Below, piece after piece: positions 628 through 46,710 of a stretch of DNA of 64,000 bases. Numbering within the stretch: position 1 is the first letter of the stretch; each line of letters begins with the position of its first letter. The notes below the pieces were generated by a model that was not told where the DNA came from, did no database searches, and was given only the letters and a program-made list of their open reading frames with translations. This stretch comes from Isosphaera pallida ATCC 43644 (GTDB taxonomy: Bacteria; Planctomycetota; Planctomycetia; Isosphaerales; Isosphaeraceae): contig NC_014962.1 of assembly GCF_000186345.1 (NCBI RefSeq), forward strand, positions 4,678,450 to 4,742,449, given 5' to 3'. A program made the translations under genes and the position numbers.

Positions 628-1929
628 TTATTCGGGCTTGAGGCGATGGGTTTGCGGGACGTAGGCGGGCAGCTTGGGCGTGACCAACGCGGGGGTGATC
701 CGGGCGAAGCGGGCGCGGCCCTTGACTTGGGGCACCGAGACCCAATCGCCGCCAATAAGCGGTTCGGCGTAGGCGAGGAATTCGTCGGTCACGTCGATGC
801 GGTTGGGGGCCAGCCAGCGCTCGGGGAAGGAGCGGTCGAAGGCAGCCACCTTGTCGAGCGGCACCTTGTCGTAGATCACTTGGTAGGCACGAGTGTCTCG
901 CCGGCGCAGCAGGGTCGCCATGTAGCCGGTCCCCTCGGTGCGGGCAAGATGAACGGCGTGACGACCGACCTCGTAAGCTTCGTCGAGATCGACGCCGCTG
1001 GCGTAGGCCATGGCGTTGCGTTGGTCGGTGCCGGGAACCTGTCCCCGCGCTTTGCCGGTGACGGGGAATTTCAGGGTGTTGAGGTAGTTGACCACAACCT
1101 GAGCGACGGTGGTTTGACTAGCGGAGAACTGGATGTGGCCGAAAGCGTCGCGGGTCACGCCGAACTCGCCCACGTCGAACCCTTCGCTGACGACGACCAG
1201 GCAACGGCCGTCGCGTTCGAGTTGGTTGAGGACGTTTTGGCCGAGTTGCTCCAGGGTGAGCTTAGATTCGGCCATGTAGATTTGGAGCGGGAGGCGGCGT
1301 TCGGGGTCGGCCAGACGAGCGGCCGCGGGGATGAAGCCGATCTTGCGGCCCATCGCCTGAATCACCAGAACGGGGTCAGCGGTCCGGCTGCCGGCGTTTT
1401 CCTCATTAGCCTGCAAGATGTAGTTGGCGAAGTAACGGGCCGCCGAGCCGTAGCCGGGAGAGTGGTCGATCAGGGTGAACTGATCGTCCCCAAGGTCGTT
1501 GTCGATCGTTTTGGGAACACCGACGGCCACCAGGTCCAGCCCGACCTCGCGAGCGCGTTGACTGACCTTGTAGGCAGTGTCCTGCGAGTCGTTGCCGCCG
1601 ATGTAGAAAAAATAGCCCACGTCATGGGCTTTGAGCACCTCCACGACCCGCTCGAAATCCTCCTCCTGGTTCGGCTTGAGCTTGTAGCGGCAGGTGCCCA
1701 CGGCACCGGCGGCCGGCGTAGTCCGCAATAGGGCGATCTCCTCGGCGGAGGAGGCGGACAGGTCGATCAGTTCTTCCTTAAGAACGCCCTCGATGCCAAA
1801 CCGTCCGGCGTACACCGCGCCAAAGGTGGCGGGATCGGCGAAACAGGCTTCGATGATGCCCCGCAGGGTGTTGTTAATCACACAGGTCGGCCCGCCCGAC
1901 TGGGCCACCACCACATTGCGCGCGGCCAT
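628..1929 (-). CDS. pfp: PPi-dependent 6-phosphofructokinase (long form)
   Basis: Phosphorylates fructose 6-phosphate in glycolysis. From the ATG at 1929 the protein has 433 residues and begins MAARNVVVAQSGGPT, the normal family start; an in-frame ATG at 2007 adds an unconserved 26-residue leader and is less likely. The phosphoryl-donor site reads GGNDS at about residues 111-115 and PKTIDND at about 139-145. ATP enzymes have GGDGS and usually PGTIDND; the Asp plus Lys seen here mark pyrophosphate users, in which the Asp side chain blocks the ATP pocket. MGRKIGF and a long C-terminal part fit the long PFP subgroup. PPi enzymes are reversible. Family and donor call are inference from motifs. 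Gnd lies downstream on the same strand. Confidence 0.9.
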   Translation of the reverse strand: MAARNVVVAQSGGPTCVINNTLRGIIEACFADPATFGAVYAGRFGIEGVLKEELIDLSASSAEEIALLRTTPAAGAVGTCRYKLKPNQEEDFERVVEVLKAHDVGYFFYIGGNDSQDTAYKVSQRAREVGLDLVAVGVPKTIDNDLGDDQFTLIDHSPGYGSAARYFANYILQANEENAGSRTADPVLVIQAMGRKIGFIPAAARLADPERRLPLQIYMAESKLTLEQLGQNVLNQLERDGRCLVVVSEGFDVGEFGVTRDAFGHIQFSASQTTVAQVVVNYLNTLKFPVTGKARGQVPGTDQRNAMAYASGVDLDEAYEVGRHAVHLARTEGTGYMATLLRRRDTRAYQVIYDKVPLDKVAAFDRSFPERWLAPNRIDVTDEFLAYAEPLIGGDWVSVPQVKGRARFARITPALVTPKLPAYVPQTHRLKPE

Positions 1930-2276
1930 GATCACTCTCGTTTCGTCTCGGATCGTCTGGTTTGGAAAAAGAACGCATTTTCTTTGTGGGAACCAAGGCG
2001 TGGTCACGATGTCTCGAAAAGGGGCGCGACGGTGCCGAGTTGATCGTGGTCGAATCGAACCCGACGCGCCGGGAACGTGACGCCAATCACCCCGTCCCGT
2101 CCATTACCTCAATCATCCATCTGTCCAACCACTCAGCCGTCTGCGAACCGAGGCGGAATCGGTTGGGCTGGATTGGTCTGGTTCAGAGCAGGGCAACGCC
2201 GACCGATTTGACTTGCCGGGCATCATCTTGGTCCAGGCCCGTTGGGGGGTGTTGATGGTCGGGTGGGGGAGCCTAG
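1930..2276. other. Intergenic stretch, no gene recognised
   Basis: About 350 bases between two minus-strand genes. Short open frames on both strands show no recognisable protein and look like chance frames in G+C-rich DNA. It should contain the promoter of the phosphofructokinase gene, but I see no convincing -35/-10 pair. Confidence 0.5.
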
Positions 2277-3914: not shown

Positions 3915-5666
3915 TCAAGAGCCGTTTGAGTCGTTGGATTGGTTGGGGGGATCGGTCTTGATCTCCCCTTCGGCTGTGACGGCGGCCTGCGTTTGGGCTT
4001 GGTTCTGGTGGGGCGTCATCCAGGCCGCATACGGCGAGTTGGCGATGCGGGCGGCGAGATGGTCGTCCACGTAAAGCGCGATGGGGTGAGTGCGAGTCAG
4101 CGGAAACCCCGGCACCAGCTTGAGACCGGAAACCTCCCGAGGCAATTCTTTCAAAAGGCGGTTGGCTTCGCCCAAATCCTTGGTAAGAGGAAGGATATGA
4201 ATATAAGCTTGGGGTCGGTAGACACGAATCAGCTCTGGAGGAATCGACTTTTCTGAATTCCAGAACACAGCGACTTGACCTCCAGCATATGTTCGCCAAA
4301 TTTCCCAGTGATTGATCAAAACACGAGTCTCTGTTGGGAGAATCGCCGCGAGATGAATCCCATGTTCGCGTAGTTCCTTCTCACGAGTAATTGCGAATGT
4401 ATATCGAATCAGGAAAGCGGTGGAAATCAACGTAATCAATAATAAAAAAGCCGCAAATCCTTGCACTAGCTTCATCATGCTCCGGTCAGTGCAGCTACTG
4501 GGCCGAATCCCCCACTCCAGGAGAAACAACGCCAACGCGATCCCCACCGTGTCGTAATAGCGGGAGAGGTTGATGCCAGTGTGGGCAAACACCACAATCC
4601 CCGCTGTGAACAGAACAATAGTCAGGGCGTCGCGTCCAACCCGTGAGGCGCGCTCCGAGTTCAAAGCGGCTCCCAAGGAAATGGCTGCCCAGAGCGAGAG
4701 AAGTTGGACGTCGAAGCGATTGAAAAGGGCGAGTTGGCCTTCGATGATCCAATCGCGGATTAGTCCAAGGTGCTTCTGGAACAGCAAGCTAAGAGCGGCG
4801 GGTTGGAACAACGAGTCCGGGGCGGGATGAATCGGATCGTTGGGTGAGTCAAACACATTGGCAACGAAATGATCGCGTTTTTGGTCGATCATGCCCAGTT
4901 CGAACGAGAGAACCCGAAAAGCGACCACGACCGCAAGCATGGCCGCGACCAGCAACAACGGACGCCACAGGACGCGCAGTTGGAAGGGGGATCGGTCTAG
5001 CATCGCCGGGACCAGAGCGATCAACCAGATCAGCGTGTCGGGCGGGCGAAACTCATGGGCTAGCCCCAACAACAGGCCAAACCGCAGCGGCTGGTTGAGC
5101 AGGGTGTGTCGATAACGCCAAGTCCAAACCATCATGATCATCGCCGGCAGATTGGTGGCGGCGGTGAGATAACTGCCTTTGAAGGTTCCGGCAAGAACAA
5201 AAACCAAGATGGTGAGGTTGAAGGCGAGGCTGTTTTGGTGACGGTAAAGAACTATCAAGGAGGCCAGAAGCGTCAGGAGCAACAGGGTTTGTCCCACCCA
5301 GAAGGCGGTAACGTCGTTTGATCCCCAGATGGCCACGAAGGGAGCGAAGTAGAAAGCCGGGGCGGTGTAGACCATCCAATAAGGGAGGGGTTCACCATTC
5401 CACCCCTCGGGAAAGTCACGGACAATCTGAAATGGAAAGACGAGGTTGTAATCGTCGAGCCGTCCGGTTTCAAGCAGGATGGCGGCTGGCTGGGTGGCAA
5501 TCGCCACTATGTCCATACGTAATCCACTTCTATAAAGGTTGAGACTCAAACTTACAAATTGAACTAACGCCAGGAGGATCAGAAAAGAAACAACAAGTTT
5601 TGACCACGTTGACTTATCCTGATAAAACGGCAAGCTTGCAGTCTCGGAGTGTTCTCGAAGGGTCAT
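3915..5666 (-). CDS. Polytopic membrane protein, tandem copy 1 of 3
   Basis: About 583 residues from the ATG at 5666, which has a good GAGAGG Shine-Dalgarno seven bases upstream. The frame is open to 5810, but that part is the repeated intergenic DNA and is unlikely to be translated. Many hydrophobic segments (roughly ten) alternate with short loops. A long non-membrane C-terminal part holds the conserved LVPGFPLTRTHPIALYVDD. The loop with LPYWMVYTAPAFYFAPF, set before a membrane helix, recalls the proline-rich loop of GT-C/GT87-type glycosyltransferases, but this is only a resemblance. The C-terminal tail after about residue 550 differs from copies 2 and 3. Function unknown; two near-identical paralogues follow upstream on the same strand. 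Confidence 0.75.
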   Translation of the reverse strand: MTLREHSETASLPFYQDKSTWSKLVVSFLILLALVQFVSLSLNLYRSGLRMDIVAIATQPAAILLETGRLDDYNLVFPFQIVRDFPEGWNGEPLPYWMVYTAPAFYFAPFVAIWGSNDVTAFWVGQTLLLLTLLASLIVLYRHQNSLAFNLTILVFVLAGTFKGSYLTAATNLPAMIMMVWTWRYRHTLLNQPLRFGLLLGLAHEFRPPDTLIWLIALVPAMLDRSPFQLRVLWRPLLLVAAMLAVVVAFRVLSFELGMIDQKRDHFVANVFDSPNDPIHPAPDSLFQPAALSLLFQKHLGLIRDWIIEGQLALFNRFDVQLLSLWAAISLGAALNSERASRVGRDALTIVLFTAGIVVFAHTGINLSRYYDTVGIALALFLLEWGIRPSSCTDRSMMKLVQGFAAFLLLITLISTAFLIRYTFAITREKELREHGIHLAAILPTETRVLINHWEIWRTYAGGQVAVFWNSEKSIPPELIRVYRPQAYIHILPLTKDLGEANRLLKELPREVSGLKLVPGFPLTRTHPIALYVDDHLAARIANSPYAAWMTPHQNQAQTQAAVTAEGEIKTDPPNQSNDSNGS

Positions 5667-6052
5667 GCCAAACCTCTCGCCTAGCTCATCATCCAAGAAG
5701 CTGCCACAAGGCAGATCAAGCCGTTCAACGTGACGCGATGGTAAGTGACCCGCGGGATTTTGCAAGCGGGCGGACCCCACAAACCAAGGGTTTGCCAAAA
5801 CTCGGGCCAAATCGGGAGCAACTCACCGAGTCGGCCCGAGTCATTGGAGAATCAGGGGTTGGTGGAGGTTGGCCGGGGAGCATTGACCGAATCGGCCTGG
5901 GAATTGACCTCGGCCTTGGTTTGGTCGGGGTTGATCCAGGAGGCATACGGCGAGTTGGCGATGCGAGCGGCGAGATGGTCGTCCACGTAAAGCGCGATGG
6001 GGTGAGTGCGGGTCAGCGGAAACCCCGGCACCAGCTTGAGGCCGGAAATCTC
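5550..6052. repeat. Near-identical 0.5 kb direct repeat, unit A (copy 1/2 junction)
   Basis: This block spans the end of copy 2, the spacer and the start of copy 1. It recurs at 7466-7968 with an offset of exactly 1,916 bp and only about three mismatches that I could see (for example at 5712 versus 7628). Its identity is far higher than that of the neighbouring coding sequence, marking it as the recombination joint of the tandem array. Confidence 0.85.
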
Positions 6053-7582
6053 GTTAGGGAGGGATTTTGAGAGAACGCTCATATCACGCTCCCAATCGGA
6101 CTGAGGCAGGAAGTGGATGTACGCCTGAGGACGATAGGAGCGAATGAGTTCTGGGGGGATTGGCTCGGTTGAATGCCAGAATACGGCGGTTTTTCCTCCA
6201 GCATAAACGCGCCAGACTTCCCAGTGATCGACCAGGACTCGGGTCTCTCGGGGAAGAATGGCCGCGAGATGACGGCCATTCTCTCGCAGCTCGAACTCGC
6301 GGTTCATCACCAGAGCGTTTCTCACAAGGAAAGCCGTGGGAATCATCACTACTAACATCAACATGACCGCGAGCCCTCGCAGCGTGATGGCCGCTCCACG
6401 ATCGGAGCATTGGCCGGACCGGAGGCCCCATTCTAGGAGGAACAACGCCAACGCGATCGCTACGGTGTCGTAGTAACGCGGGAGGTTGATCCCCGTATGG
6501 CCGAACACCACGATCCCGGCAGTGAAGAGAATGATCGTCAGGGCGTCGCGTGCGACCCGTGAGGCGCGCTCAGAGTTCAAAGCGGCTCCCAAGGAAATGG
6601 CTGCCCAGAGCGAGAGAAGTTGGACGTCGAAGCGATTGAAAAGGGCGAGTTGGCCTTCGATGATCCAATCGCGGATTAGTCCGAGGTGCTTCCGAAAGAG
6701 AAAACTGAGGGTAGCCGGGTGAAACAACGTGTCGGGTGCAGGATGAACCGGCTTGTTAAACGACTCGAACAGATTAACGAACAGGTAGTCACGTTTTTGG
6801 TCGATCATGCCCAGTTCGAACGAGAGAACCCGGAAAGCAACCACGACCGCAAGCATGGCCGCGACCAGCACCAACAGACGCCACAGGACGCGCAGTTGGA
6901 AGGGGGATCGGTCTAGCATTGCCGGAGTCAGGGCGATCAACCAGATCAGCGTATCGGGAGGGCGAAACTCATGGGCCAGACCCAACAGCAGGCCAAACCG
7001 CAGCGGATGGTTGAGTAGAGTGCGTCGATAACGCCAAGTCCAAACCATCATCATCATCGCCGGCAGATTAGTAGCGGCGGTGAGATAACTGCCTTTGAAG
7101 GTTCCGGCAAGAACAAGGACCAAGATGGTGAGGTTGAAGGCGAGGCTGTTTTGGTGACGGTAAAGAACCATCAAGGAGGCCAGAAGCGTCAGGAGCAAGA
7201 GGGTTTGTCCCACCCAGAAGGCGGTAACGTCGTTTGATCCCCAGATGGCGACGAAGGGAGCGAAGTAGAGGGCCGGGGCGGTGTAGACCATCCAATAAGG
7301 GAGGGGTTGACCGTTCCAACCGTTAGGGAAGTCGCGGATGATTTGGAATGGTAAGACGAGGTTGTAATCGTCGAGCCGTCCGGTTTCAACCAAGGAAGCG
7401 GCGGGTTGAATTGCAACAGCGACTACATCCAGATGGAGACCGGCTCGATAAAGATAGACAGCCCAACTTACAAATTGAACTAACGCCAGGAGGATCAGAA
7501 AAGAAACAACAAGTTTTGACCACGTTGACTTATCCTGATAAAACGGCAAGCTTGCAGTCTCGGAGTGTTCTCGAAGGGTCAT
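5852..7582 (-). CDS. Polytopic membrane protein, tandem copy 2 of 3
   Basis: About 576 residues from the ATG at 7582. Its Shine-Dalgarno and first 27 residues are identical to copy 1, including MTLREHSETASLPFYQD. The same membrane topology is predicted. Along its length it alternates in which sister it resembles. Its first 27 residues and its membrane core match copy 1. Its loop with FVNLFESFNKPVHPAPD and its last roughly 65 residues match copy 3 almost exactly. This patchwork points to gene conversion or unequal crossing over. The stop is followed by a 250 bp spacer that is also repeated between copies 2 and 1. Role unknown; a membrane glycosyltransferase is one possibility. Confidence 0.75.
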   Translation of the reverse strand: MTLREHSETASLPFYQDKSTWSKLVVSFLILLALVQFVSWAVYLYRAGLHLDVVAVAIQPAASLVETGRLDDYNLVLPFQIIRDFPNGWNGQPLPYWMVYTAPALYFAPFVAIWGSNDVTAFWVGQTLLLLTLLASLMVLYRHQNSLAFNLTILVLVLAGTFKGSYLTAATNLPAMMMMVWTWRYRRTLLNHPLRFGLLLGLAHEFRPPDTLIWLIALTPAMLDRSPFQLRVLWRLLVLVAAMLAVVVAFRVLSFELGMIDQKRDYLFVNLFESFNKPVHPAPDTLFHPATLSFLFRKHLGLIRDWIIEGQLALFNRFDVQLLSLWAAISLGAALNSERASRVARDALTIILFTAGIVVFGHTGINLPRYYDTVAIALALFLLEWGLRSGQCSDRGAAITLRGLAVMLMLVVMIPTAFLVRNALVMNREFELRENGRHLAAILPRETRVLVDHWEVWRVYAGGKTAVFWHSTEPIPPELIRSYRPQAYIHFLPQSDWERDMSVLSKSLPNEISGLKLVPGFPLTRTHPIALYVDDHLAARIANSPYASWINPDQTKAEVNSQADSVNAPRPTSTNP

Positions 7583-7968
7583 GCCAAACCTCTCGCCTAG
7601 CTCATCATCCAAGAAGCTGCCACAAGGCGGATCAAGCCGCTCAACGTGACGCGATGGTAAGTGACCTGCGGGATTTTGCAAGCGGGCGGACCCCACAAAC
7701 CAAGGGTTTGCCAAAACTCGGGCCAAATCGGGAGCAACTCACCGAGTCGGCCCGAGTCATTGGAGAATCAGGGGTTGGTGGAGGTTGGCCGGGGAGCATT
7801 GACCGAATCGGCCTGGGAATTGACCTCGGCCTTGGTTTGGTCGGGGTTGATCCAGGAGGCATACGGCGAGTTGGCGATGCGAGCGGCGAGATGGTCGTCC
7901 ACGTAAAGCGCGATGGGGTGAGTGCGGGTCAGCGGAAACCCCGGCACCAGCTTGAGGCCGGAAATCTC
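7466..7968. repeat. Near-identical 0.5 kb direct repeat, unit B (copy 2/3 junction)
   Basis: Second instance of the 1,916-bp-spaced block, covering the end of copy 3, the spacer and the start of copy 2. The left half of the block holds the shared ribosome-binding site and start codon; the right half holds the shared C-terminal coding end. Confidence 0.85.
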
Positions 7969-9513
7969 CCGAGGAAGATGTTTGGCAATAAATTTGGGGT
8001 TCACCTTTTTGGTGGCTTCGGGGAGGATCTGGATGTACGCCTGGGGTCGGTAAACCTGCTGCAGCTTGGGAGGAATGCGTTCGCCCCAGTACCAGAAGAC
8101 TGCCGTTTTGCCTCCGGCGTAGGCCAACCACCGTTCCCAGTGAGTGACCAACACGCGGGTCTCCGGCGGGAGGATGGCCGCGAGATGACGACCGCTTTTG
8201 CGAAGCTCAAACTCACGGGTCGTTGTCCAGGCGCGGACCAGTAGGAAGCCGGTGGAGATCACGACGAACACCAACAACAGCGCGGCGAGTCTCCAGAGCA
8301 TCCTTGCGGCGTTGGGATTGTGACATCGGCTGGGTCGGACGCCCCATTCCAACAGAAAGAGAGCCAGGGCGATCGCCACCGAATCGTAATAACGGGACAG
8401 GTTGATGCCGGTTTGGGCGACGAGAACAATGCCGACAGTGAAAAGCATTAGCGTCAAGGCGTCGCGCCCGACCCGAGAGGCGCGTGGAGAGGTCGAGGTC
8501 GCGGCGGACCACAGAGAGATGGCCGCCCAAAGGGCTAAAATCTGAATGTCGAGACGATTGAACAAGACATGTTGACCTTCCATGATCCAACTGCGGATCA
8601 GTTCCAAGTGTTTTTGAAAGAGGAAATCGAGGGTAGCCGGGTGGAACAACGTGTCGGGTGCAGGATGAACCGGCTTGTTAAACGACTCGAACAGATTAAC
8701 GAACAGGTAGTCACGTTTTTGGTCGATCATGCCCAGTTCGAACGAGAGAACCCGAAAAGCGACCACGACCGCAAGCATGGCCGCGACCAGCAACAACAGA
8801 CGCCACAGGACGCGCAGTTGGAAGGGGGATCGGTCTAGCATCGCCGGGACCAGGGCGATCAACCAGATCAGCGTGTCGGGCGGGCGAAACTCATGGGCCA
8901 GCCCCAACAGCAGGCCAAACCTCAGCGGCTGGTTGAGTAGAGTGCGTCGATAACGCCAAGTCCAAACCATCATGATCATCGCCGGCAGATTGGTGGCGGC
9001 GGTGAGGTAGCTGTCCTTGAAGGCTCCGCTCAGGATTAGGACCAAGACCGTCAGGTTGAAGGCCAGACTGTTTTGATAGCGGTAGAGCAGGAGGAGGGAA
9101 GCCAAAAGGAAGGCCAGCAACAGGGTTTGCCCCACCCAGAAGGCGGTAACGTCGTTTGATCCCCAGATGGCGACGAAGGGAGCGAAGTAGAAAGCCGGGG
9201 CGGTGTAGACCATCCAATAAGGGAGGGGTTCACCGTTCCAACCTTCGGGGAAGTCGCGGACAATCTGAAATGGAAAGACGAGGTTGTAATCGTCGAGCCG
9301 TCCGGTTTCAAGCAGGATGGCGGCTGGCTGGGTGGCGATCGCCACTACGTCCATATGGAGACCCATTCTGAAAAGGAGAAGAGCCCATCCGCCGAATTGA
9401 ACCGCCGCCAGGATCATAAGGAACCAGAGTAGCGGGGAAGTCCAAGCCGTTTGGGTCGCGTTTAAGGCGGACTCCCGGTGAGAGGCATTTTCCATTCTCA
9501 CAAGCGGCCTCAT
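7768..9513 (-). CDS. Polytopic membrane protein, tandem copy 3 of 3
   Basis: The promoter-proximal member of the cluster, 581 residues from the ATG at 9513 (an ATG at 9495 is an alternative; neither has a clear Shine-Dalgarno). Its N-terminus (MRPLVRMENASHRE) and its upstream DNA are unique, unlike copies 1 and 2. From GLHMDVVAIATQPAAILLETG onward it is nearly identical to copy 1 for about 80 residues, then diverges, then shares its C-terminal segment ending in NAPRPTSTNP with copy 2. It has the same multi-spanning architecture. It probably heads a three-gene transcript. Substrate and reaction are not recognisable. Confidence 0.75.
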   Translation of the reverse strand: MRPLVRMENASHRESALNATQTAWTSPLLWFLMILAAVQFGGWALLLFRMGLHMDVVAIATQPAAILLETGRLDDYNLVFPFQIVRDFPEGWNGEPLPYWMVYTAPAFYFAPFVAIWGSNDVTAFWVGQTLLLAFLLASLLLLYRYQNSLAFNLTVLVLILSGAFKDSYLTAATNLPAMIMMVWTWRYRRTLLNQPLRFGLLLGLAHEFRPPDTLIWLIALVPAMLDRSPFQLRVLWRLLLLVAAMLAVVVAFRVLSFELGMIDQKRDYLFVNLFESFNKPVHPAPDTLFHPATLDFLFQKHLELIRSWIMEGQHVLFNRLDIQILALWAAISLWSAATSTSPRASRVGRDALTLMLFTVGIVLVAQTGINLSRYYDSVAIALALFLLEWGVRPSRCHNPNAARMLWRLAALLLVFVVISTGFLLVRAWTTTREFELRKSGRHLAAILPPETRVLVTHWERWLAYAGGKTAVFWYWGERIPPKLQQVYRPQAYIQILPEATKKVNPKFIAKHLPREISGLKLVPGFPLTRTHPIALYVDDHLAARIANSPYASWINPDQTKAEVNSQADSVNAPRPTSTNP

Positions 9514-14997: not shown

Positions 14998-15759
14998 CAG
15001 ATCGCATTCCTCTCAGATGCCGAATTGATCAAACTAAAAACAACCTTCGACCTGTTCAACATGACCTTTCGAATCCCGGAAATCGGACAAGACGGGATAA
15101 GATCATGCGAGCAGGCGATGGTCTTCGTTGTACCATGTTGTGTTGATGTAAGCGTGAGATTTGATAAAAGCTTTGGAGAAAGATTGATGAACTGGGTGTG
15201 GGGTGTGGAGGGGAAGAGTGGGAAATCAATGTGAAGTATAGGGTGGTAACGAGGAAGTTTGGTGTGGAGGAGAAAAGTGGGAAGTGGAAGTTCGGTGTGG
15301 GGAGCGAGATGTTCGAAGGGAAATGTGAGATGCAGAGAATGAGCAGTGAGGAGCAAAAAGCAAGAGAGTTGAGAAGGGGATGCGCGTGTAAAGCCCACGT
15401 TTCCAAGAGAGAACCAGCCACACTTACCGGTCTTACCGGAAGCTAAGCGTCCCGCTCGCTTCCCCGCAACTTATTTGGTTGTTTACAGGGACTCAATTAG
15501 GGGATCCCAAGTCTCAACCTCCTTGCTCTTTCCTACATTACTCTAAATATCCCAAACCCCAATTCTTACGCCCTACTCTAAACATCCTATACACTCCATC
15601 CCCTACACTCCACTTCGAACACTCCCTACGCTGAACTCTGAAAACTCTACTTCCTCCTCAATCCACTTCAGATTTCGCATTCTCTCCATTCCATTTCAGA
15701 TCTCCTACTCTTTCCACTCTACTTCGAACTTTCTAGTTCCCACACCGCACTCCGCCCCC
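14998..15759. other. Non-coding region with degenerate heptad and G-rich sequence
   Basis: Between the phosphatase start and the perfect heptad array. At 15194-15222 four G-runs of three or four bases on the plus strand are separated by loops of 3, 6 and 6 bases, a good G-quadruplex candidate. About 15180-15330 is purine-rich on the plus strand. From about 15530 the plus strand turns pyrimidine-rich, with a visible seven-base rhythm (tacactc, catcccc, cacttcg, aacactc) that becomes more regular toward 15760. A minus-strand open frame here (15056-15421) is of biased composition and is probably not a gene. Confidence 0.6.
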
Positions 15760-16025
15760 CACTCCCCACACTTCACTCCCCACTCCCCACACTTCACTCC
15801 CCACTTCCCACTCCCCACACTTCACTCTCCACTCCCCACTCCCCACTCCCCACACTTCACTCTCCACTCCCCACTCCCCACACTTCACTCCCCACTTCCC
15901 ACTCCCCACACTTCACTTCCCACTCCCCACTCCCCACTCCCCACACTTCACTCTCCACTCCCCACTCCCCACTCCCCACACTTCACTCCCCACTTCCCAC
16001 TCCCCACACTTCACTCTCCACTCCC
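15760..16025. repeat. Heptanucleotide tandem repeat, 38 units in perfect phase
   Basis: Thirty-eight consecutive 7-base units with no phase slip. Four unit types make it up: CACTCCC (most common), CACACTT, CACTCTC and CACTTCC. The order is itself patterned: CACACTT recurs every three to five units and is nearly always preceded by CACTCCC. The array ends eight bases before the stop codon of the minus-strand baeRF gene, so the transcript of that gene would carry G-rich repeats in its 3' end. Similar heptad arrays are known from filamentous cyanobacteria. Confidence 0.95.
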
Positions 16026-21590: not shown

Positions 21591-21618
21591 TTGACAGTCC
21601 CAGAACTTGAACTATACT
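21591..21618 (+). promoter_or_regulatory. Sigma70-type promoter for tcmP
   Basis: TTGACA at 21591-21596 and TATACT at 21613-21618 with a 16-base spacer, a near-consensus match in AT-rich DNA. It lies 58 bases before the tcmP start codon. Confidence 0.7.
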
Positions 21619-21675
21619 TTTCTACATAGTGGACATCCTTCGTCATTGTTCCTTCCCCTTTGGTGGAGGTTGAGC

Positions 21676-22608
21676 ATGACTAGCCAGACAAAATTTGGTG
21701 GGAAGTGGACTCAGCTCAAGCTTTCAGCACTTGAAGCTTATCTTGAGGCGTACCTCAAAGTCATGAAGAAACAGAAGTTTAATCTTATTTACATTGACGC
21801 TTTTGCTGGAACAGGCTGTCTGCAGAATTGGGATAACCAAAAAGACAAGATAGAATCCTCCAGATTAGAGTTCGGTGGAGACGATGAGGCTAACGAGGCT
21901 CAGGATTTCTTGAACGGTTCAGTAAAAGTGGCATTAAATGCTGGCCAGGAGGATGGTAATAGCTTTCACGAATATCGTTTTATTGAAAAATGCTCTAGAA
22001 AATTTGAAGAATTGAATAATATTAAAAACGAGTTTCCTAGGAAGAAAATTCTCATCCGGAATGCAGAAGCAAACTTAGAAGTTAGAAGAATGTGTGAAGG
22101 TTTAGGCAAAATGGATCGGGCTGTCTTGTTTCTTGACCCCTTTGGAATGCAAGTTGAATGGAAAACAATTGAGTTCATCGCTCTCACAGAGAGAATTGAC
22201 TTGGTGCTGTTATTTCCGGTTGGTGCAAGTTTGAGGCTGATGCCGCGAGATGGTGACCTTGATGAAGCGACCAAAGAGAAACTGAATCAATTCTTTGGAG
22301 ATGAAAAATGGCATAATGAGATATACAAACCAGCAAGCTCTTCGTTTCTTCCTCCTTTTATTGATTCGAACGAACAGCCTGTATCCAGAGAAGCAGGGAC
22401 TCACAAAATTGAAGGTTTTGTCCGAAAAAGGTTGTCAGACATTTTCTTTGGTGTTGTAGATCGGCCTCTACGCCTGGTGAATACCAAAAACGCCCCCCTC
22501 TATTTGCTATTTTTTGCTTTCGGGAATGAAAAAGGCGCTGAAATTGGTAAAAGAATTGCAAATAGAATCATCGCTAATCATTCCTCGCCAAATTACAGAA
22601 AGCGATGA
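21676..22608 (+). CDS. tcmP: Three-Cys-motif partner protein TcmP
   Basis: A 310-residue protein started at the ATG at 21676, with GGAGG about eight bases upstream; the frame's earlier ATG at 21607 overlaps the promoter. It matches the TcmP family: KFGGKWTQLKLSALEAYLEAYL, then IYIDAFAGTG (residues about 39-47), then VLFLDPFGMQVEW (from about 149), and the late stretch PLYLLFFAFGN. DAFAGTG and LDPFG resemble the SAM-binding and catalytic loops of adenine-type methyltransferases, though the family has no proven activity to my knowledge. Codon use is strikingly AT-rich against its surroundings (near 40% G+C by eye), pointing to recent acquisition. It overlaps the next gene by ATGA. Confidence 0.88.
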   Translation: MTSQTKFGGKWTQLKLSALEAYLEAYLKVMKKQKFNLIYIDAFAGTGCLQNWDNQKDKIESSRLEFGGDDEANEAQDFLNGSVKVALNAGQEDGNSFHEYRFIEKCSRKFEELNNIKNEFPRKKILIRNAEANLEVRRMCEGLGKMDRAVLFLDPFGMQVEWKTIEFIALTERIDLVLLFPVGASLRLMPRDGDLDEATKEKLNQFFGDEKWHNEIYKPASSSFLPPFIDSNEQPVSREAGTHKIEGFVRKRLSDIFFGVVDRPLRLVNTKNAPLYLLFFAFGNEKGAEIGKRIANRIIANHSSPNYRKR

Positions 22609-23420
22609 GCGACCACACCACCATCGAATGGACTGATGCGACTTGGAACCCTGTCCGGGGTTGCGACAAGATCAGCCCCGGCTGCAAGCATTGCTACGCC
22701 GAAACCTTCGCCGAGCGGTTTCGAGGGGTGGCCGGGCATCCCTATGAACACGGGTTTGATCTGCGCTTGGTCCCGGCTAAGCTCGCCGATCCGTTTCGCT
22801 GGGCCGCGCCGAAGCGGGTGTTTGTGAACTCGATGAGCGACTTGTTCCACCGCGACGTGCCGCTGGATTACATCGAGCGAGTGTGTCGCGTCATGGAGAT
22901 TGCCAACTGGCACACGTACCAAGTTCTGACCAAACGCCACGAACGCCTGCGTGAGCTACTAAGCGGTCCGCTCAACTGGGCCGGTCGGCTGCCGCACGTT
23001 TGGTGGGGCGTCTCGGTTGAGGACCGCCAATACGGCCTGCCCCGAATCGACGCCCTCCGGGTCACGCCGGCGGTGGTCCGGTTCTTGTCGATCGAGCCTC
23101 TCTTGGAGGACTTGGGGACGCTTGACTTGGCCGGCATCCACTGGGTGATTGTCGGTGGCGAAAGCGGGCCTGGCGCGCGGCCGATGCAACCCGAATGGGT
23201 GGTGTCGATCCGGGACCAATGCCAACGCGCCGGGGTGCCGTTCTTCTTCAAGCAGTGGGGTGGGACGAGGAAGCATCGGACGGGACGACTGCTCGAAGGT
23301 CGCACCTGGGATGAGCTTCCCCCGATTCAACCCTGTCGTCCCATGCCATCTCTGCCCCAACGCCGTGTCCTGAGCAACACGTTGCTCAATCCGACGACGG
23401 GAATAGTGGCCCCGCCTTGA
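22605..23420 (+). CDS. DUF5131 (phage Gp37/Gp68-like) three-Cys-motif protein
   Basis: A 271-residue protein starting inside the tcmP stop (ATGA), so translation is coupled. The N-terminus shows IEWTDATWNPVRGC, then Cys20, Cys27 and Cys30 in a C-x6-C-x2-C arrangement, which resembles a radical-SAM iron-sulfur site with altered spacing. Other family marks are VFVNSMSDLFH, YQVLTKRHERL, WWGVSVEDRQYGLPRID, FLSIEPLLEDLG, WVIVGGESGPGARPM and FFFKQWGG. Homologues occur in phages and genomic islands, and TcmP is named for standing next to them. The reaction is unknown. G+C content is as high as the chromosome, unlike its partner. The last 30 residues past GRTWDELPP look like a non-family tail. Confidence 0.88.
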   Translation: MSDHTTIEWTDATWNPVRGCDKISPGCKHCYAETFAERFRGVAGHPYEHGFDLRLVPAKLADPFRWAAPKRVFVNSMSDLFHRDVPLDYIERVCRVMEIANWHTYQVLTKRHERLRELLSGPLNWAGRLPHVWWGVSVEDRQYGLPRIDALRVTPAVVRFLSIEPLLEDLGTLDLAGIHWVIVGGESGPGARPMQPEWVVSIRDQCQRAGVPFFFKQWGGTRKHRTGRLLEGRTWDELPPIQPCRPMPSLPQRRVLSNTLLNPTTGIVAPP

Positions 23421-24615: not shown

Positions 24616-24717
24616 TCCGTGGTGCTGGTCATGTTTGAGTCGCCCCCGGCGTGTCGTCAGGGCCGGGTGTCGGCAATGGTCCCCCGATGTTCCGACGAAG
24701 ACGAGACGGTACAAACG

Positions 24718-25545
24718 ATGTCCAACGAGTTGCGGATCGAAGACCTGCGCGTCGCCATCGAAGGTAAGGAAATCCTCAAGGGTGTGAGCCTGACAGTACG
24801 TCAAGGCGAGGTCCACGCCCTGATGGGCCCCAACGGTTCGGGCAAAAGTACCTTGAGCTACGCCCTGATGGGGCACCCCAGCTATGAGGTGACCGGCGGC
24901 TCGGTGTTGCTCAACGGCTGCAACCTGTTGGAGATGGAGGCCGACGAGCGAGCCAAGGCTGGGTTGTTCTTGGCGTTTCAGTATCCCACGGCGATCCCCG
25001 GCGTGACCGTGGCCAACTTCCTGCGGCATGCTGTCACCAACATCCGCCACCCCGACCGCAAGGAGGGCGAGGATCTCATCCCGATGCGCGAGTTCCGCAA
25101 GGAACTGCGCGCAGTGATGGACGAACTGGGGATCGACCCCGAGTTTGCCCGCCGCTACCTCAACGACGGCTTCTCCGGCGGCGAGAAGAAGCGGGCTGAG
25201 GTATTGCAACTGGCAATGCTCAAACCGGCCTTCGCCATTCTGGACGAAACCGACTCGGGCCTGGACATCGACGCGGTGCGTCTGGTCTCCGAAGGGGTCA
25301 ACCGGGTTGTCCAGCGCGAGGGGACCGGAGTGTTGGTGATCACCCACTACCAACGCATTCTCAACTACATCAAGCCCCAATTCGTCCATATCCTGCTGGG
25401 CGGCCGAATCGTCGAACGCGGCGGTCCTGAACTCGTCGAGATTCTGGAGCGCGACGGCTACGACTGGGTGCGTGCCAAGCATCCAGTCGAGGCCCGCGAG
25501 GCCGAGGAGCTCGAAGCGGCCCACGCTGGCGCGGACTCGTTCTGA
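24718..25545 (+). CDS. sufC: SufC, Fe-S assembly ATPase
   Basis: 275 residues from the ATG at 24718, which begins MSNELRIEDLRVAIEG as SufC proteins do; upstream in-frame ATGs add an unconserved leader. Walker A is GPNGSGKSTLSYALMGH, the Q-loop region is FLAFQYPTAIPGV, the signature is FSGGEKKRAEVLQL, Walker B is FAILDETDSGLDIDA and the switch His is VITHYQRIL. These SufC-specific forms separate it from transport ATPases. It is a soluble ATPase that drives the SufBC2D scaffold. It leads the structural genes, with sufB 111 bases downstream. The C-terminal tail rich in Glu/Ala (about 20 residues) is slightly longer than usual. Confidence 0.96.
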   Translation: MSNELRIEDLRVAIEGKEILKGVSLTVRQGEVHALMGPNGSGKSTLSYALMGHPSYEVTGGSVLLNGCNLLEMEADERAKAGLFLAFQYPTAIPGVTVANFLRHAVTNIRHPDRKEGEDLIPMREFRKELRAVMDELGIDPEFARRYLNDGFSGGEKKRAEVLQLAMLKPAFAILDETDSGLDIDAVRLVSEGVNRVVQREGTGVLVITHYQRILNYIKPQFVHILLGGRIVERGGPELVEILERDGYDWVRAKHPVEAREAEELEAAHAGADSF

Positions 25546-25656
25546 CCCAACCGAACTCGACTCGACCAGGATCGATCGACCTTCGCCGCCCCTTCCTTTC
25601 TTCGTCCCCGTCCATCCCCGTTTGATCCGCCACGTTTTCCACGGAGGAACGCCGCC

Positions 25657-27078
25657 ATGTCCACCGATCTCGATCTCGCCAGTCAGGTTGCCGGTATCAA
25701 CGAAAGTTACAAGTACGGGTTCCGCGACAGCGAAGACCATTACGCCTTCAAGTCGGGCAAAGGTCTCACCGAGGAGACGGTCCACCAAATCTCCGAGATG
25801 AAGAACGAGCCGGACTGGATGCGCGAGTTCCGGCTCAAGAGCCTAGCCGCCTTCCGGGCGAAGCCGCTGCCCACCTGGGGCGGCGACCTGTCGGAACTCG
25901 ACTTCGACGACATTCACTACTTCGTCAAGGCAACCGACCGCCAAGGCAAGAGCTGGGACGACGTGCCCGCCGAAATCAAGAACACTTTCGACCGTCTGGG
26001 CATCCCCGAAGCCGAACGCAAGTTCCTGGCGGGCGTCGGAGCCCAGTACGAATCCGAGGTGGTCTACCATTCGCTGCGCGAGGACCTGGCCGCCAAGGGA
26101 GTCATCTTCGTTGACACCGACACCGCGGTTCGGGACTATCCTGACCTGGTCCGCGAATACTTCGGGACGATCATCCCCTACACCGACAACAAGTTCGCCG
26201 CGCTCAATTCGGCGGTCTGGTCAGGTGGATCATTTGTGTACATCCCGGCTGGCGTCAAGGTAGACATTCCGCTTCAGGCCTACTTCCGGATCAACGCCGA
26301 GAACATGGGCCAGTTCGAACGGACCCTCATCATCGTCGAGGAAGGAGCCCAGGTCCACTACGTCGAGGGCTGCACTGCGCCAATCTACACCTCCGAATCG
26401 CTGCACTCGGCGGTGGTGGAGATTATCGTCAAGAAGGGCGGGCGGTGCCGCTACACCACGATCCAGAACTGGGCCAACAACATTTACAACTTGGTCACCA
26501 AGCGGGCTGTGGCGCAGGAGGACGCCCTGATGGAGTGGGTGGACGGCAACCTCGGCAGCCGCTTGACCATGAAATACCCTGCCGTCTACCTGACGGGTCC
26601 CGGCGCGCGGGGCGAGATTCTCTCAATCGCCTTCGCGGGCAAGGGCCAGCATCAGGACGCCGGCGGTAAGGTGGTTCACGCCGCGCCCCACACCTCCTCG
26701 CGGATCATCTCCAAGAGCATCAGCAAGGACGGCGGACGCTCCAGCTATCGCGGATTGCTCAAGGTGGTGGACGGAGCCAAGGGATCCAAGAGCAACGTGG
26801 TCTGCGATGCCCTGATCCTCGACCCCCGCAGCCGCTCCGACACCTATCCCACGATCGAGATCGACGAGGAAGACGCCAAGATCGGCCACGAAGCCAGTGT
26901 CTCCAAGATCGGCGAGGAGCAGCTGTTCTACCTGATGAGCCGAGGCCTCTCCGAAGCGGAAGCCTCAACCTTGATCGTGAGCGGCTTCATCGAGCCCTTG
27001 GTCAAGGAACTGCCGATGGAATACGCCGTTGAGATGAACAAGCTCATCGAACTTCAGATGGAAGGCTCGGTGGGTTAA
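25657..27078 (+). CDS. sufB: SufB, Fe-S scaffold subunit
   Basis: A 473-residue protein with the GGAGGAA ribosome site eight bases ahead of its ATG. It has the standard SufB features: [20 protein letters not shown] early, [38 protein letters not shown] with the conserved Cys, [43 protein letters not shown] and the C-terminal [31 protein letters not shown]. SufB forms the beta-helix core on which the nascent cluster is built with sulfur delivered by a sulfurtransferase partner. It sits between sufC and sufD, the usual order. Length is normal for the family, and nothing looks truncated. Confidence 0.97.
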
Positions 27079-27316
27079 GTTGAGTTGGAGAGCGCCGAAT
27101 CCGCCGCCTCTCTCCTCCTTCACTTTTTCCTCAATCGCTAACCCCGGTCAATTCCGCTTAGGCGACCTGCGCCGCGCTCGTCTTTCCTGGCCACGGGTTG
27201 GGACGGGCGTGGCGGGCTCTGACGCCGTTTCCCGAATACGCCACCGGTCAAGCTGGTTTGGTTGCGTCCTGTTGACGGATTCTCTTCCCTCGTTCCCTGG
27301 TTTCTTCTGAATCAAT

Positions 27317-28708
27317 ATGTCTTCCATCGTCACCCGCTCTGCCACTGGATTCCACGCCGATGCCCTCGCTGCGTTCCTGGAGGGACGCGACGAGCCCTCC
27401 TGGTTCGGCGACCGCCGCCGGGCCGCGTTCGAGCGGTTTATCCAGACCCCTCTGCCCACCCTCCGCGACGAGGAGTGGCGACGCACCGATTTGAGGGGCC
27501 TCAAGCTCGACCAATTCGGCCCGGTCGCCGGTGGGCCTGCCTCCCCGTCCGAGGCGCTTTCGGCCTCGCCGGCTTGGTCCACCTTGGCGGAGACCCACGG
27601 GGCCGAGTTCGGTGTGCATCACCGCGACGGACGCCCCGCCACTCACCCTGCGTCCGCCCCCGAGTTGCCCGCGGGCGTGGTCTTTACCGATCTGGCCACC
27701 GCCCTCAAGCGCCACCCCGACCTCATTCAACGCCACCTGGGACACGCCATCGACACCCAGGCCGACGCCTTCGCCCTGCTTCAATCCGCCTTTGTCTCTG
27801 GCGGCGTGGCGCTGTACGTTCCCCAAGGCGTCAAGCTCGACCATCCTTTGTTCCACCTGATCGAACTGGGACCGGACGGACGAAGTGACTTCAACCACAC
27901 CTTGGTGATTCTGGAAAAGGGGGCCGAGGCCACCTTCATCCAAGAGACCGCCTCGACCCAGCGTCCTGACAAGACCCCGGCCCTGCATGTGGGCGCGGTC
28001 GAATTGTTCGTGGGCGAACGGGCCAAACTTCGATTTGTGAACATTCAGAACTGGGACCGCCAAACCTGGCACTTCAGCCGAGAACGCGCCGTCGTCGCCG
28101 CCGAAGGCGCGCTGCAGTGGACTGTGGGCGGCCTCGGCGCGCGGCTGGCCAAGGTCAACCAAGATGTCGCCCTCGCCGGTCCCCGCGCCCGCGCTCAGGT
28201 CAATGGGGTGCTGTTCACCACCGGACGCCAACACCTAGCCTACTTCACCCGCCAGGACCACCAAGCCCCCCAGACCACCAGCGACCTACTCTACAAGGGA
28301 GGGTTGACCGACCACTCGCGCCTCGTCTGGAAAGGCATGATCCGAGTCGAACCAGATGCCCAGAAGACCGACGCCTACCAGAAAAACGACAGCCTCATCC
28401 TCTCCCCACATGCTCGCTCCGACTCGATTCCGGGTCTGGAAATCGAGGCTAACGACGTGCGCTGCACCCACGGCGCAACCGCCGGTCCCATCGATCCGGA
28501 GATGCTATTCTACTGCCGCTCGCGTGGACTGGGTCGAGAGGAGTCGGTTCGGTTGATTGTCGAGGGATTCTTCGCTAACGTGTATGACCGTATCAGTTTG
28601 GAGTCGGCCCGCGCGACCCTGGAAACCGTGGTGGCCCAGCGTTTCGCCGAATCGGTCGGCCTGCCCGCCGACGCGATCGCCGCCTCCCTCGCCCGCGAGA
28701 AAGCGTAA
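27317..28708 (+). CDS. sufD: SufD, Fe-S scaffold subunit
   Basis: A 463-residue SufB paralogue. The N-terminal helical domain has the FQTP-like PTLRDEEWRRTDLRGLKL. The beta-helix core then carries GGVALYVPQGVKLDHPLFHL, FVNIQNWDRQTWHFSRERA and FTTGRQHLAYFTRQDHQAPQTTSDLLYKG. The C-terminus holds KNDSLILSPHARSDSIPGLEIEANDVRCTHGATAGPID, with the conserved Cys/His pair of SufD, and LIVEGFFANV. It pairs with SufB in the SufBC2D complex and helps iron entry. A 238-base gap separates it from sufB, wider than usual, with no gene recognised in it. Confidence 0.95.
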   Translation: MSSIVTRSATGFHADALAAFLEGRDEPSWFGDRRRAAFERFIQTPLPTLRDEEWRRTDLRGLKLDQFGPVAGGPASPSEALSASPAWSTLAETHGAEFGVHHRDGRPATHPASAPELPAGVVFTDLATALKRHPDLIQRHLGHAIDTQADAFALLQSAFVSGGVALYVPQGVKLDHPLFHLIELGPDGRSDFNHTLVILEKGAEATFIQETASTQRPDKTPALHVGAVELFVGERAKLRFVNIQNWDRQTWHFSRERAVVAAEGALQWTVGGLGARLAKVNQDVALAGPRARAQVNGVLFTTGRQHLAYFTRQDHQAPQTTSDLLYKGGLTDHSRLVWKGMIRVEPDAQKTDAYQKNDSLILSPHARSDSIPGLEIEANDVRCTHGATAGPIDPEMLFYCRSRGLGREESVRLIVEGFFANVYDRISLESARATLETVVAQRFAESVGLPADAIAASLAREKA

Positions 28709-31391: not shown

Positions 31392-31739
31392 GCCAAGCCA
31401 AGCCAAGCCGGATCCTCGTCGTTCGCTCGTTCCCCGCGGCCGGGGTGGCTCGATGGATCAAGCCGCCCGGTTTGATTGACTTCCGTTCCGATCGGTTCCG
31501 CACCGGCCGCGACGCCCCCCTTCTCCGCGTCGCGGCGAGTCGCGCTTGACGAGACGATCTTCAGCGACCGCCTCGACGCCGTCGTGAGCCCCCTCGGCTT
31601 GGAGCGCGTTTGGGATCCCCGGCGTTCGGCCAGGGTTACCTCGTCCACCGCGACTCGCCGTCCCGCCTCCCCTCCCCGTGCGTTGCCGCCTTCGCTCCGA
31701 TCGCCTTCGACCCCCGCAAGAGGGTCGCGGAGCTCCGTT
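31392..31739 (+). other. Leader region before the second phosphofructokinase gene
   Basis: About 350 bases. It opens with a short GCCAA pentamer repeat (about 31391-31410). The downstream gene's frame is open back to 31476, but that stretch is Pro/Arg/Ser-rich and has no family homology, so it is treated as non-coding leader. No clear promoter seen. Confidence 0.45.
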
Positions 31740-32771
31740 ATGAATCTCGGCATCCTCACCGGCGGCGGTGACTGTCCCGGACTCAACGCCGTCATCCGCG
31801 CGGTCGTCCAGCGCGTTCATCAGGCCGGTTTCTCAACGCTGGGTATCCTCGAAGGCTGGAAAGGTCTCATCCAGGACGCCACCCTGCCCCTCACCCCCGA
31901 CCGCACCGACGGCCTGATCGGTCAAGGCGGAACCATCCTGGGCTCCTCGCGCACCAACCCCTTCAAAGACGCCGACCGCGACCTGCCCCGCCTCCTGGAA
32001 AACCTCAAACGCCACCGCCTGGACGGACTCATCGTCGTCGGCGGCGACGACACCCTGGGCGTGGCCCATCGCCTTAAACGCGACCACGACGTGGCCGTCG
32101 TGGGCGTGCCCAAGACCATCGACAACGACCTGAATGTGACGGAGTTCACCTTCGGATTCGACACGGCGGTCAATATCGTGATGGAGGCGATCGACCGACT
32201 GCGCACCACCGCCGAAAGCCATCGCCGAGTCATGGTGGTCGAGACCATGGGCCGTCAAACCGGCTGGATCGCCGCGTTCGCCGGCATCGCCGTCGGAGCC
32301 GACTACATCCTGGTCCCTGAAGTCCCCGCCGACCTCGACCACTGCTGCGACGTGCTGACCCGCCGTCGCGCCCAGGGCAAACACCACGGAATCGTGGTCG
32401 TTTCCGAAGGGGTCCAGCTTCTCCATAGCGGCCTGATCTCGCAGTACGACGAACTCGACTCCTTCGGCCATCCCCGGCCCACCGGAATCGGCCCCCTTAT
32501 CGCCCGGATCATCGAAGACCTCACCAACATCGAAACACGCGCGGTCATCCTGGGACACCTCCAACGCGGCGGCGCGCCAACCGCTTCGGACCGCATCCTC
32601 GCCACCCGGATGGGACTTGCAGCCGCCGACCTGGCGCTGCATCATCACTTCGGCCGACTCGTAGCCCTCCACCAAGGTCGGATCGTCGATGTGCCGCTCG
32701 ACCAGTCCGTCACCGAGATCCGCAAACTCGACCCAAGTTATTACGAGGCCGCGTCCGCCTTCTTTCGGTGA
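31740..32771 (+). CDS. pfkA: 6-phosphofructokinase, PPi-type motifs (short form)
   Basis: A 343-residue enzyme from the ATG at 31740, giving MNLGILTGGGDCPGLNAVIR, the exact family start. The donor site has GGDDT at residues 101-105 and PKTIDND at 124-130. In characterised enzymes the Asp of GGDD together with the Lys of PKTIDND goes with pyrophosphate, while ATP enzymes have GGDG and PGTIDND. The rest is standard: MGRQTGW, a fructose 6-phosphate site in VVSEGVQL, and LGHLQRGGAPTASDR. It is a cytosolic glycolytic enzyme. A second PPi-type gene lies near the start of the window, so no ATP-type enzyme is visible here. The donor call is by motif only. Confidence 0.9.
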   Translation: MNLGILTGGGDCPGLNAVIRAVVQRVHQAGFSTLGILEGWKGLIQDATLPLTPDRTDGLIGQGGTILGSSRTNPFKDADRDLPRLLENLKRHRLDGLIVVGGDDTLGVAHRLKRDHDVAVVGVPKTIDNDLNVTEFTFGFDTAVNIVMEAIDRLRTTAESHRRVMVVETMGRQTGWIAAFAGIAVGADYILVPEVPADLDHCCDVLTRRRAQGKHHGIVVVSEGVQLLHSGLISQYDELDSFGHPRPTGIGPLIARIIEDLTNIETRAVILGHLQRGGAPTASDRILATRMGLAAADLALHHHFGRLVALHQGRIVDVPLDQSVTEIRKLDPSYYEAASAFFR

Positions 32772-44685: not shown

Positions 44686-44689
44686 TCCC

Positions 44690-46252
44690 ATGAATTCCCA
44701 GACTTCCGCCTCTGCGTCCATCGCCGACGCCAACCACGGCCCTTCCGATCACGCGGAACCAGCCCGGACCCACGGTCACGGCCACGGCTTGGACGCCCAC
44801 TTGAGATCGCAGAGCCACACGCTGGTCAAACCGCGACGCACCGCGTTAAGCCGTCAGCTGAGAACCATTGCCGATCCCCGCGAACTCAAGCTGCCGGCGC
44901 TTCGCTTAACCCGCTCGTTACGAGTGGCTCGTCAGCTCGGTTGGTGGATGGGGCTGATTCTGATTGCCTTTCCTTTGTTTTTGGCGCTGACCCCCTGGAT
45001 TCAGGTGATCGAGGGGCAAGGGCGGGTCGCTGCCTTCGGCCCCCTGGAACGTCGTTTCAATATCGAGGCCCCGATTTCAGGCGTCGTTGTCAAGTGGCAC
45101 GTCACGGAAGGCTCAGAAGTCAAGGTCGGTGACCTCCTGGCGACCCTTTCCAACAACGACCGTCAGTTCGTCGAGGCGTTGGAGGAGCAGAAGCAGGCGA
45201 TCATCCGGGAACGCGACACCGCCCAACGGGAAGTGGATTTCTACGAGACGATCATCGCTGACACCCGCAAGGTGATGGAGGCGGCGGTAGCGGCGGCGGA
45301 GAAGTCGGTCGAGGCCACCGAGCAAAAGGTCGAAGCAGTCGAAAAGAAAGTCGAGGCGTTCCAAGCGGTTTACGTGGCCGACTTCTCCCGGTTTCGGCGG
45401 TTCAAAGACACCGGCGCGACTGGCGTGGTCGCCCCGTTGGAGTTAGACATCGCCGAGGGCAAAGCACGCGAGAGCCGGGCCAAGGTCGAGGAGGCCAAGG
45501 CCGAACTCAAATCGTCCGAAGCCGATCTGGCCGCCAAGCGGGCGTTCCTGGAGGAAACCCGCGCCAAGATGAACGCCGAGGTCCAAAAAGCGCTGGTGGA
45601 GCAGCAGAAGGCCATCGCTAAGGTCGAGGCTAAGAACAAAGAGCTTCAAGATGTTTTGGTGAAGATTCGCCAACAGGAGAACCGCGAAGTTCGGGCCGTG
45701 CGGAACGGTCGGATCTTCCGCATTCTGGTCAACGAACAGCTGATGCAGGTCAAGGAGGGGGAGCCGCTGGCGCAACTGATTCCCGAGACCGATCAGCCGG
45801 CGGTCGAGTTGTGGGTGGCGGGCAACGACGCGCCCCTGATTCACCTGGGGGATCCAGTGCGTCTCCAATTCGAGGGCTGGCCGGCCGCCCAGGTGGTGGG
45901 CTGGCCGAGCGTGGCGGTGGGCACCTTCGCCGGCGAGGTCAAGGTGATCGACACCGCTGACGACGGTATGGGGCGGTTCCGCATCGTGGTGGTCCCCGCT
46001 GAAGGGGAAAGCTGGCCCGAGGCCCGCTACCTGCGTCAGGGCGTTCGCGCCAAAGGTTGGGTGTTGTTGAGCCAGGTGAGTCTCGGCTTCGAACTCTGGC
46101 GGCGTCTCAACGGGTTCCCACCCATGATCAAGCCGTTCGAAGACGGTCCCGGCATCGGCGACTACGACAAGGGAGTCCTCGGCGACGCCAAGGCTACGGG
46201 CGACGACAAGGCCAAGCTCGACCCCATCACGCCTAAACGTCTGATCAAGTAA
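44690..46252 (+). CDS. HlyD-family membrane fusion (periplasmic adaptor) protein
   Basis: 520 residues, starting four bases after the exporter stop, so translation is coupled. The cytoplasmic N-terminus has a His-rich stretch (THGHGHGLDAH, about 27-37). One membrane helix follows at 83-105, then a biotinyl-like half-motif (FNIEAPISGVVVKWHVTEGSEVKVGDLL). Next comes a very long coiled coil (about residues 155-340, rich in Glu/Lys/Ala), the second lipoyl half (RAVRNGRIFRILVNEQLMQVKEGEPLAQLIP), and a beta-barrel domain. It bridges the inner-membrane exporter and the TolC-like channel. The tail after ERRLNGFPP-type sequence is rich in Asp/Lys. Part of one operon with its neighbours. Confidence 0.9.
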   Translation: MNSQTSASASIADANHGPSDHAEPARTHGHGHGLDAHLRSQSHTLVKPRRTALSRQLRTIADPRELKLPALRLTRSLRVARQLGWWMGLILIAFPLFLALTPWIQVIEGQGRVAAFGPLERRFNIEAPISGVVVKWHVTEGSEVKVGDLLATLSNNDRQFVEALEEQKQAIIRERDTAQREVDFYETIIADTRKVMEAAVAAAEKSVEATEQKVEAVEKKVEAFQAVYVADFSRFRRFKDTGATGVVAPLELDIAEGKARESRAKVEEAKAELKSSEADLAAKRAFLEETRAKMNAEVQKALVEQQKAIAKVEAKNKELQDVLVKIRQQENREVRAVRNGRIFRILVNEQLMQVKEGEPLAQLIPETDQPAVELWVAGNDAPLIHLGDPVRLQFEGWPAAQVVGWPSVAVGTFAGEVKVIDTADDGMGRFRIVVVPAEGESWPEARYLRQGVRAKGWVLLSQVSLGFELWRRLNGFPPMIKPFEDGPGIGDYDKGVLGDAKATGDDKAKLDPITPKRLIK

Positions 46253-46710
46253 AATCCATCCACGCCGGGAGCGACCTTCGGCGGTCCGTCCAAACCACCT
46301 ACCGACCAGAGCGGGCGTATTGGACCTCTCGACCCGTCAACCCAGCGGGTTCGAGGAGGCCAGCACGCCCCGGTCGCATTTTCGGGACGAGCCGACCACG
46401 ACCATTCCGGTGTGACCGGCGCGATCCGCGAGTCTGGAATCAAGTTGGAGCATCATTGATGACGATTTGACAACAGCCGCGATCTGGCTGGATTGGCGTG
46501 GAGGCGTCGCGATTTCGGAACCGTGCGCGTCAGTCTCCGCCGCATGACCCCGCGGAGACCGAGAAGAGTACGCCGTGGACCCGTCTCGACTGGATGGTAC
46601 GTGGATGGGATGAGGAACACCGACCCCAACCTCTTAGCTCAACGAGGGTTGAACCAGGTCGTCCAGGCGGGTTTGGCGGGTTCAGATCGTTCCAGAAGGA
46701 GGTGGGAACC
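46253..46710 (+). other. Gap between adaptor and TolC-like genes
   Basis: About 460 bases without a recognised gene. The downstream frame is open from 46498, but the strong ribosome site at 46694 fixes the start at 46711. A weak promoter-like pair (TTGACA at 46467, TGGATT at 46489, 16-base spacer) may give the channel gene its own transcript. Confidence 0.4.

Follow-up and report, generated by a model that had tools for sequence, protein, structure and literature searches.

Three collinear genes form a head-to-tail array on the minus strand of the 64,000-nucleotide stretch of Isosphaera pallida ATCC 43644 DNA analysed here (the window). The copies trade nearest partners along their length, with identity per block swinging from ~60% to 97-100%. 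Judged from the sequence, this pattern is very probably best accounted for by three old tandem paralogs that have undergone patchy, repeated gene conversion. The initial annotation had proposed a gene-conversion mosaic of three tandem collinear genes, and had named a flat sliding-window plot of nucleotide identity as the result that would speak against it. We found that the plot was not flat for any pair, and the mosaic was strongly supported by switching at synonymous sites, permutation tests and sharp tract edges. Copies 1, 2 and 3 of that annotation are referred to here as c1, c2 and c3; the order of transcription is c3, c2, c1.

Two start candidates are present in c3 (ATG at 9513 or 9495). 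In the case of c1 and c2, longer ORFs that begin at upstream TTG codons within the repeated spacer, and that traverse the spacer, would extend c1 to 5810 (631 aa) and c2 to 7726 (624 aa). A GAGAGG motif precedes the ATG codons at 5666 and 7582 (MTLREHSE...), and these codons are likelier than TTG to be the true starts of c1 and c2. The distance between the two intergenic junctions is 1916 bases. Hydropathy analysis predicted at least 9 transmembrane (TM) helices within the first 430 residues and a C-terminal tail of 165 columns. Promoter and terminator scans gave signals at the array no more often than in shuffled sequences.

The genome of I. pallida IS1B, ATCC 43644, comprises a chromosome of 5,472,964 bases and a plasmid of 56,340 bases, with an average GC content of 62% (PMC3072084). 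A search of this 5,529,304-base genome recovered the three full copies alone; it contained no further copies, partial copies or silent donor cassettes, even at E 10, and the spacer sequence did not occur in the genome outside the array. The GC content of the array was 0.55-0.59, compared with 0.61-0.67 immediately outside. Elsewhere in the window, positions 15001-16000 have a low GC content (0.51 against a background of 62%) and a strongly negative GC skew of -0.32.

Segmentation of the aligned copies with a five-state HMM yielded 11 segments (Table 1). The tracts are named as pairs, donor and recipient being unpolarised with one genome and no outgroup. When each informative site was labelled by the odd copy out, the labels formed 175 runs as compared with 283 +/- 10 expected from 2000 shuffles, among which the minimum was 248; nearest-partner switching thus exceeded chance. 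For every pair, the longest run of agreement gave p<0.0002 in 5000 permutations, and this result held with third codon positions alone. The same value (p<0.0002) was obtained for the c1/c3 run at 9334-9261, for the run in the c2/c3 tract, which encodes FVNLFESFNKPVHPAPD, and for the c1/c2 run in the tract at c2 6537-6694. The claim that c1 and c2 share most of the membrane core stood only in part, as c1 and c3 were equally close or closer in columns 60-130 and 168-270.

Table 1. Genes, junction repeat and HMM segments of the array. Segments are in c3 coordinates, and identities are listed as c1c2, c1c3, c2c3.
Feature	Coordinates	Strand	Partner coordinates	Identities	Remarks
Copy 3 (c3)	9513-7768	-			First transcribed; ORF; 581-aa predicted polytopic membrane protein
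Copy 2 (c2)	7582-5852	-			Middle; ORF plus start context; likely ATG 7582
Copy 1 (c1)	5666-3915	-			Last transcribed; ORF plus start context; likely ATG 5666
Junction repeat copy A	7467-7968	-			c3 3' end, spacer, c2 5' end
Junction repeat copy B	5551-6052	-			c2 3' end, spacer, c1 5' end
Segment	5' flank to 9387	-		99,45,45	HMM
Segment	9386-9356	-			Diverged in all pairs (HMM)
c1/c3 tract	9355-9244	-	c1 5406-5517	77,96,79	c2 odd
Segment	9243-9116	-			Alike in all three (HMM)
c1/c2 tract	9115-9007	-	c2 7085-7193, c1 5169-5277	97,66,68	c3 odd
Segment	9006-8714	-		93,97,95	Alike in all three (HMM)
c2/c3 tract	8713-8617	-	c2 6695-6791	64,63,96	c1 odd
c1/c2 tract	8616-8453	-	c2 6537-6694, c1 4621-4778	97,72,72	c3 odd
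Diverged block	8452-7965	-	c2 6049-6536, c1 4133-4620	65,61,63	
Segment	7964-7859	-		97,97,100	Alike in all (HMM)
Segment	7858 to spacer	-		54,54,100	HMM

Synonymous sites followed the same blocks. Within tracts, pS was 0.00-0.07 for one pair, while the odd copy stood at 0.6-0.8 over the same codons. Thus, c1c2 gave 0.00 versus 0.75 in codon columns 1-45, 0.07 versus 0.66-0.68 in columns 131-165, and 0.00 in columns 321-340 (c1c3 and c2c3, 0.84 each). The c1c3 pair gave 0.06 in columns 61-80, where the other pairs were at 0.44-0.51, and c2c3 gave 0.06 versus 0.74-0.80 in columns 271-296. Were the copies the product of ordinary duplication without recombination, the pattern would have to come from protein constraint together with relaxed or diversifying selection. 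The three copies are indeed alike in columns 168-270 and 519-555, as protein constraint would give. However, purifying selection on the protein does not act on a single pair, and constraint therefore cannot explain synonymous identity that is specific to one pair and that switches with the blocks, with different pairs at the same codons; moreover, the untranslated spacer is 98% identical between its two copies. Because of the synonymous switching and the runs permutation, protein-level constraint alone is excluded. We consider an origin without recombination extremely improbable, and constraint as a substitute for recombination is refuted by the synonymous-site pattern.

The matching 5' ends of c1 and c2 and the matching 3' ends of c2 and c3 are part of a single 502-bp repeat that crosses the spacer. 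Its copies A and B are identical at 499 of 502 positions, are separated by an offset of 1916 and end abruptly; all three differences (5713, 5724 and 5751) are in the spacer. The initial annotation had noted that c1 and c2 share their first 27 residues and that c2 and c3 share their last 65. This sharing was found, but not as two separate events, a reading that we rejected as the shared ends belong to one continuous repeat. Conversion spanning the junction, tandem duplication and unequal crossover would each explain such a repeat. Thus, the statement that the pattern is not expected from simple duplication applies to the gene bodies but calls for caution at the shared ends, where tandem duplication or unequal crossover gives the same junction repeat. 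In length, the repeat roughly matches or exceeds one 454 read. The published assembly of ATCC 43644 was built from 454 plus Illumina reads (PMC3072084). The perfect coding parts of the repeat could come in part from consensus building during assembly, yet the three spacer differences were retained; the tracts of ~100-160 bp should fit within single reads and be robust.

The constant offset of the duplicated spacer, together with the match of c2 to c1 at the 5' end and to c3 at the 3' end, is also exactly what would be left behind had two older genes undergone one recent unequal crossover, with c2 as the hybrid and no conversion at all. A single crossover predicts that c2 matches one parent everywhere and switches once. 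Instead, several switches were observed, and c2 was saturated with respect to both c1 and c3 in columns 46-60 and 351-515 (pS 0.59-0.81). A lone crossover is therefore very improbable, and as the sole event it is refuted by the multiple switches and the saturated columns of c2, although unequal crossover could be one among several events.

Divergence between the tracts bears on the age of the copies. All three pairs diverge strongly in columns 46-60 and 351-515 (pS 0.42-0.91). The diverged block at 8452-7965, where pS was 0.6-0.9 in every pair, covers the last predicted TM helix and the first part of the C-terminal domain. As all three pairs are saturated in columns 351-515, c1, c2 and c3 are old, or else c2 also carries material from a lost copy or from another strain. 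Besides the level of 0.00-0.07 seen in the tracts, columns 168-270 showed a second one (pS ~0.12-0.19), and synonymous divergence at two or more levels suggests that exchange was repeated. Import of alleles, in which a lost fourth copy or other strains with divergent alleles supplied some of the segments, would fit both the blocks of c2 that resemble neither neighbour and the GC content of the array, which is below that of its flanks and the 62% genome average. No donor is known, however, and near-exact tracts between copies still need exchange among them. We regard import as unlikely, though it can coexist with conversion among the three paralogs.

Repeated conversion in an old array thus remains the preferred reading. 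In this model, the array consists of three old paralogs in tandem, deeply diverged from one another, that encode an orphan family of polytopic membrane proteins. Repeated, localised homologous exchange, presumably by RecA-type recombination, would then have produced tracts of ~100-500 bp that are nearly identical between differing pairs, and probably included a junction-spanning event or an unequal crossover. Blocks between the tracts have stayed diverged, most markedly at the last TM helix and the beginning of the C-terminal domain. Exchange would have taken place among these three copies, and not with a lost copy or with another strain's alleles.

Gene conversion within genomes and concerted evolution have been described for bacterial paralogs such as tufA/tufB and fla (reviewed by Santoyo and Romero 2005, cited in PMC6053082). 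There, too, paralogs within one genome show patchy identity, synonymous sites included. Unlike tufA/tufB and fla, homogenisation here is partial and the pairs switch, and with no orthologs in the genomes searched the species-tree criterion used for bacterial paralogs is inapplicable. The array also resembles the bab genes of Helicobacter pylori (PMC4552749), which are paralogs for membrane proteins and swap segments through conversion. The bab products are outer-membrane adhesins with strain data, whereas the present case concerns polytopic, helix-rich proteins from one genome. The mosaic is a known process in an orphan family, with no evidence of a new mechanism. It offers a clear worked example, from outside the pathogens, of patchy conversion among tandem bacterial genes, and mosaics of this kind lead gene trees and the assignment of orthologs astray. 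The more unusual part is the orphan 580-aa polytopic family with three recombining copies.

The suggestion of possible selection for variation, as with phage receptors or enzymes of surface glycans, found no support. In the most variable block (columns 396-515), pN was 0.25-0.39 and pS was 0.62-0.91, and pN was below pS in every diverged block with one exception. The exception was a noisy 20-codon block (501-520) in which pN exceeded pS for c1c3 only; as it holds few synonymous sites, it was given no weight. No receptor or enzyme family was recognised, and features of antigenic-variation cassettes were lacking, with neither silent donors in the genome nor excess amino-acid change in the variable blocks. 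A selected diversity generator, in which reshuffling of segments within the array alters a surface-exposed domain or its glycan product, for example against phages, would agree with the position of the most variable block (at the last TM helix and the beginning of the C-terminal domain) between homogenised blocks and with the failure to find relatives of the family. Given the pN and pS values, the lack of silent cassettes or extra copies and the absence of a match to defence- or phage-related families, we consider such a generator improbable. A further prospect is that this lineage-specific array actively recombines and so diversifies the C-terminal domain in a new family of integral-membrane proteins (surface glycan or phage-receptor variation), with breakpoints that vary among strains; this too we hold to be improbable, and slightly the more so.

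The family has so far been found only in the hot-spring bacterium I. pallida and would, on present searches, be an orphan. A single-protein search of 58 relatives returned no homolog, nor did a 3-row profile in the taxonomic family (44 other genomes) or in 392 phylum and 398 class genomes, two samples that overlap. The sole extra profile match (L011; E 0.001, 66 columns) fell on a gene resembling those for pseudopilins and was put down to chance. Two contig scans of 84,980 species also gave no homolog; these scans depend on short peptide patterns and mainly reach close relatives. Searches of viral contigs, plasmids and PDB sequences were likewise negative, and Pfam, NCBIfam, PHROGs and PADLOC gave no family match.

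The predicted layout consists of a TM helix, a long loop rich in acidic residues and aromatic-proline motifs, more helices and a soluble tail. From this layout, we tentatively guess that the protein may be an integral-membrane enzyme, GT-C-like or of a similar type, whose C-terminal domain is soluble, although we think it somewhat doubtful. The likeness to GT-C glycosyltransferases (GT87 PF09594, PMT_2 PF13231) is one of layout only, namely many TM helices, a soluble C-terminal domain and a first large loop that is long and contains many acidic residues. Unlike GT87 and PMT_2 proteins, the family has no Pfam match, and hhalign gave no profile-profile match to GT87, PMT_2, Wzy or MFS sets from planctomycete relatives. 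As a control, a 3-row GT87 profile sufficed to recover its own family; GT87 against PMT_2 reached only 26% probability, indicating that the method barely links two GT-C families and could have missed a distant GT-C relationship. AlphaFold2 models from the 3-row alignment had mean pLDDT values of 38 and 48, too low for a fold search.

Several other gene groups were seen in the window. Two different 6-phosphofructokinase-like genes, by sequence appearance, lie at 628-2007 (minus strand) and 31476-32771 (plus strand). Three consecutive putative SufC, SufB and SufD genes at 24619-28708 (plus strand) resemble an iron-sulfur cluster assembly operon. Adjacent ORFs at 21607-23420 (plus strand) presumably encode proteins that resemble a three-Cys-motif partner protein (TcmP) and a phage Gp37/DUF5131-like protein; TcmP and Gp37/DUF5131-like proteins are often paired. 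Finally, a row of putative ABC-transporter, HlyD-like and TolC-like ORFs at 42217-48858 (plus strand) resembles a gene set for export or type I secretion.
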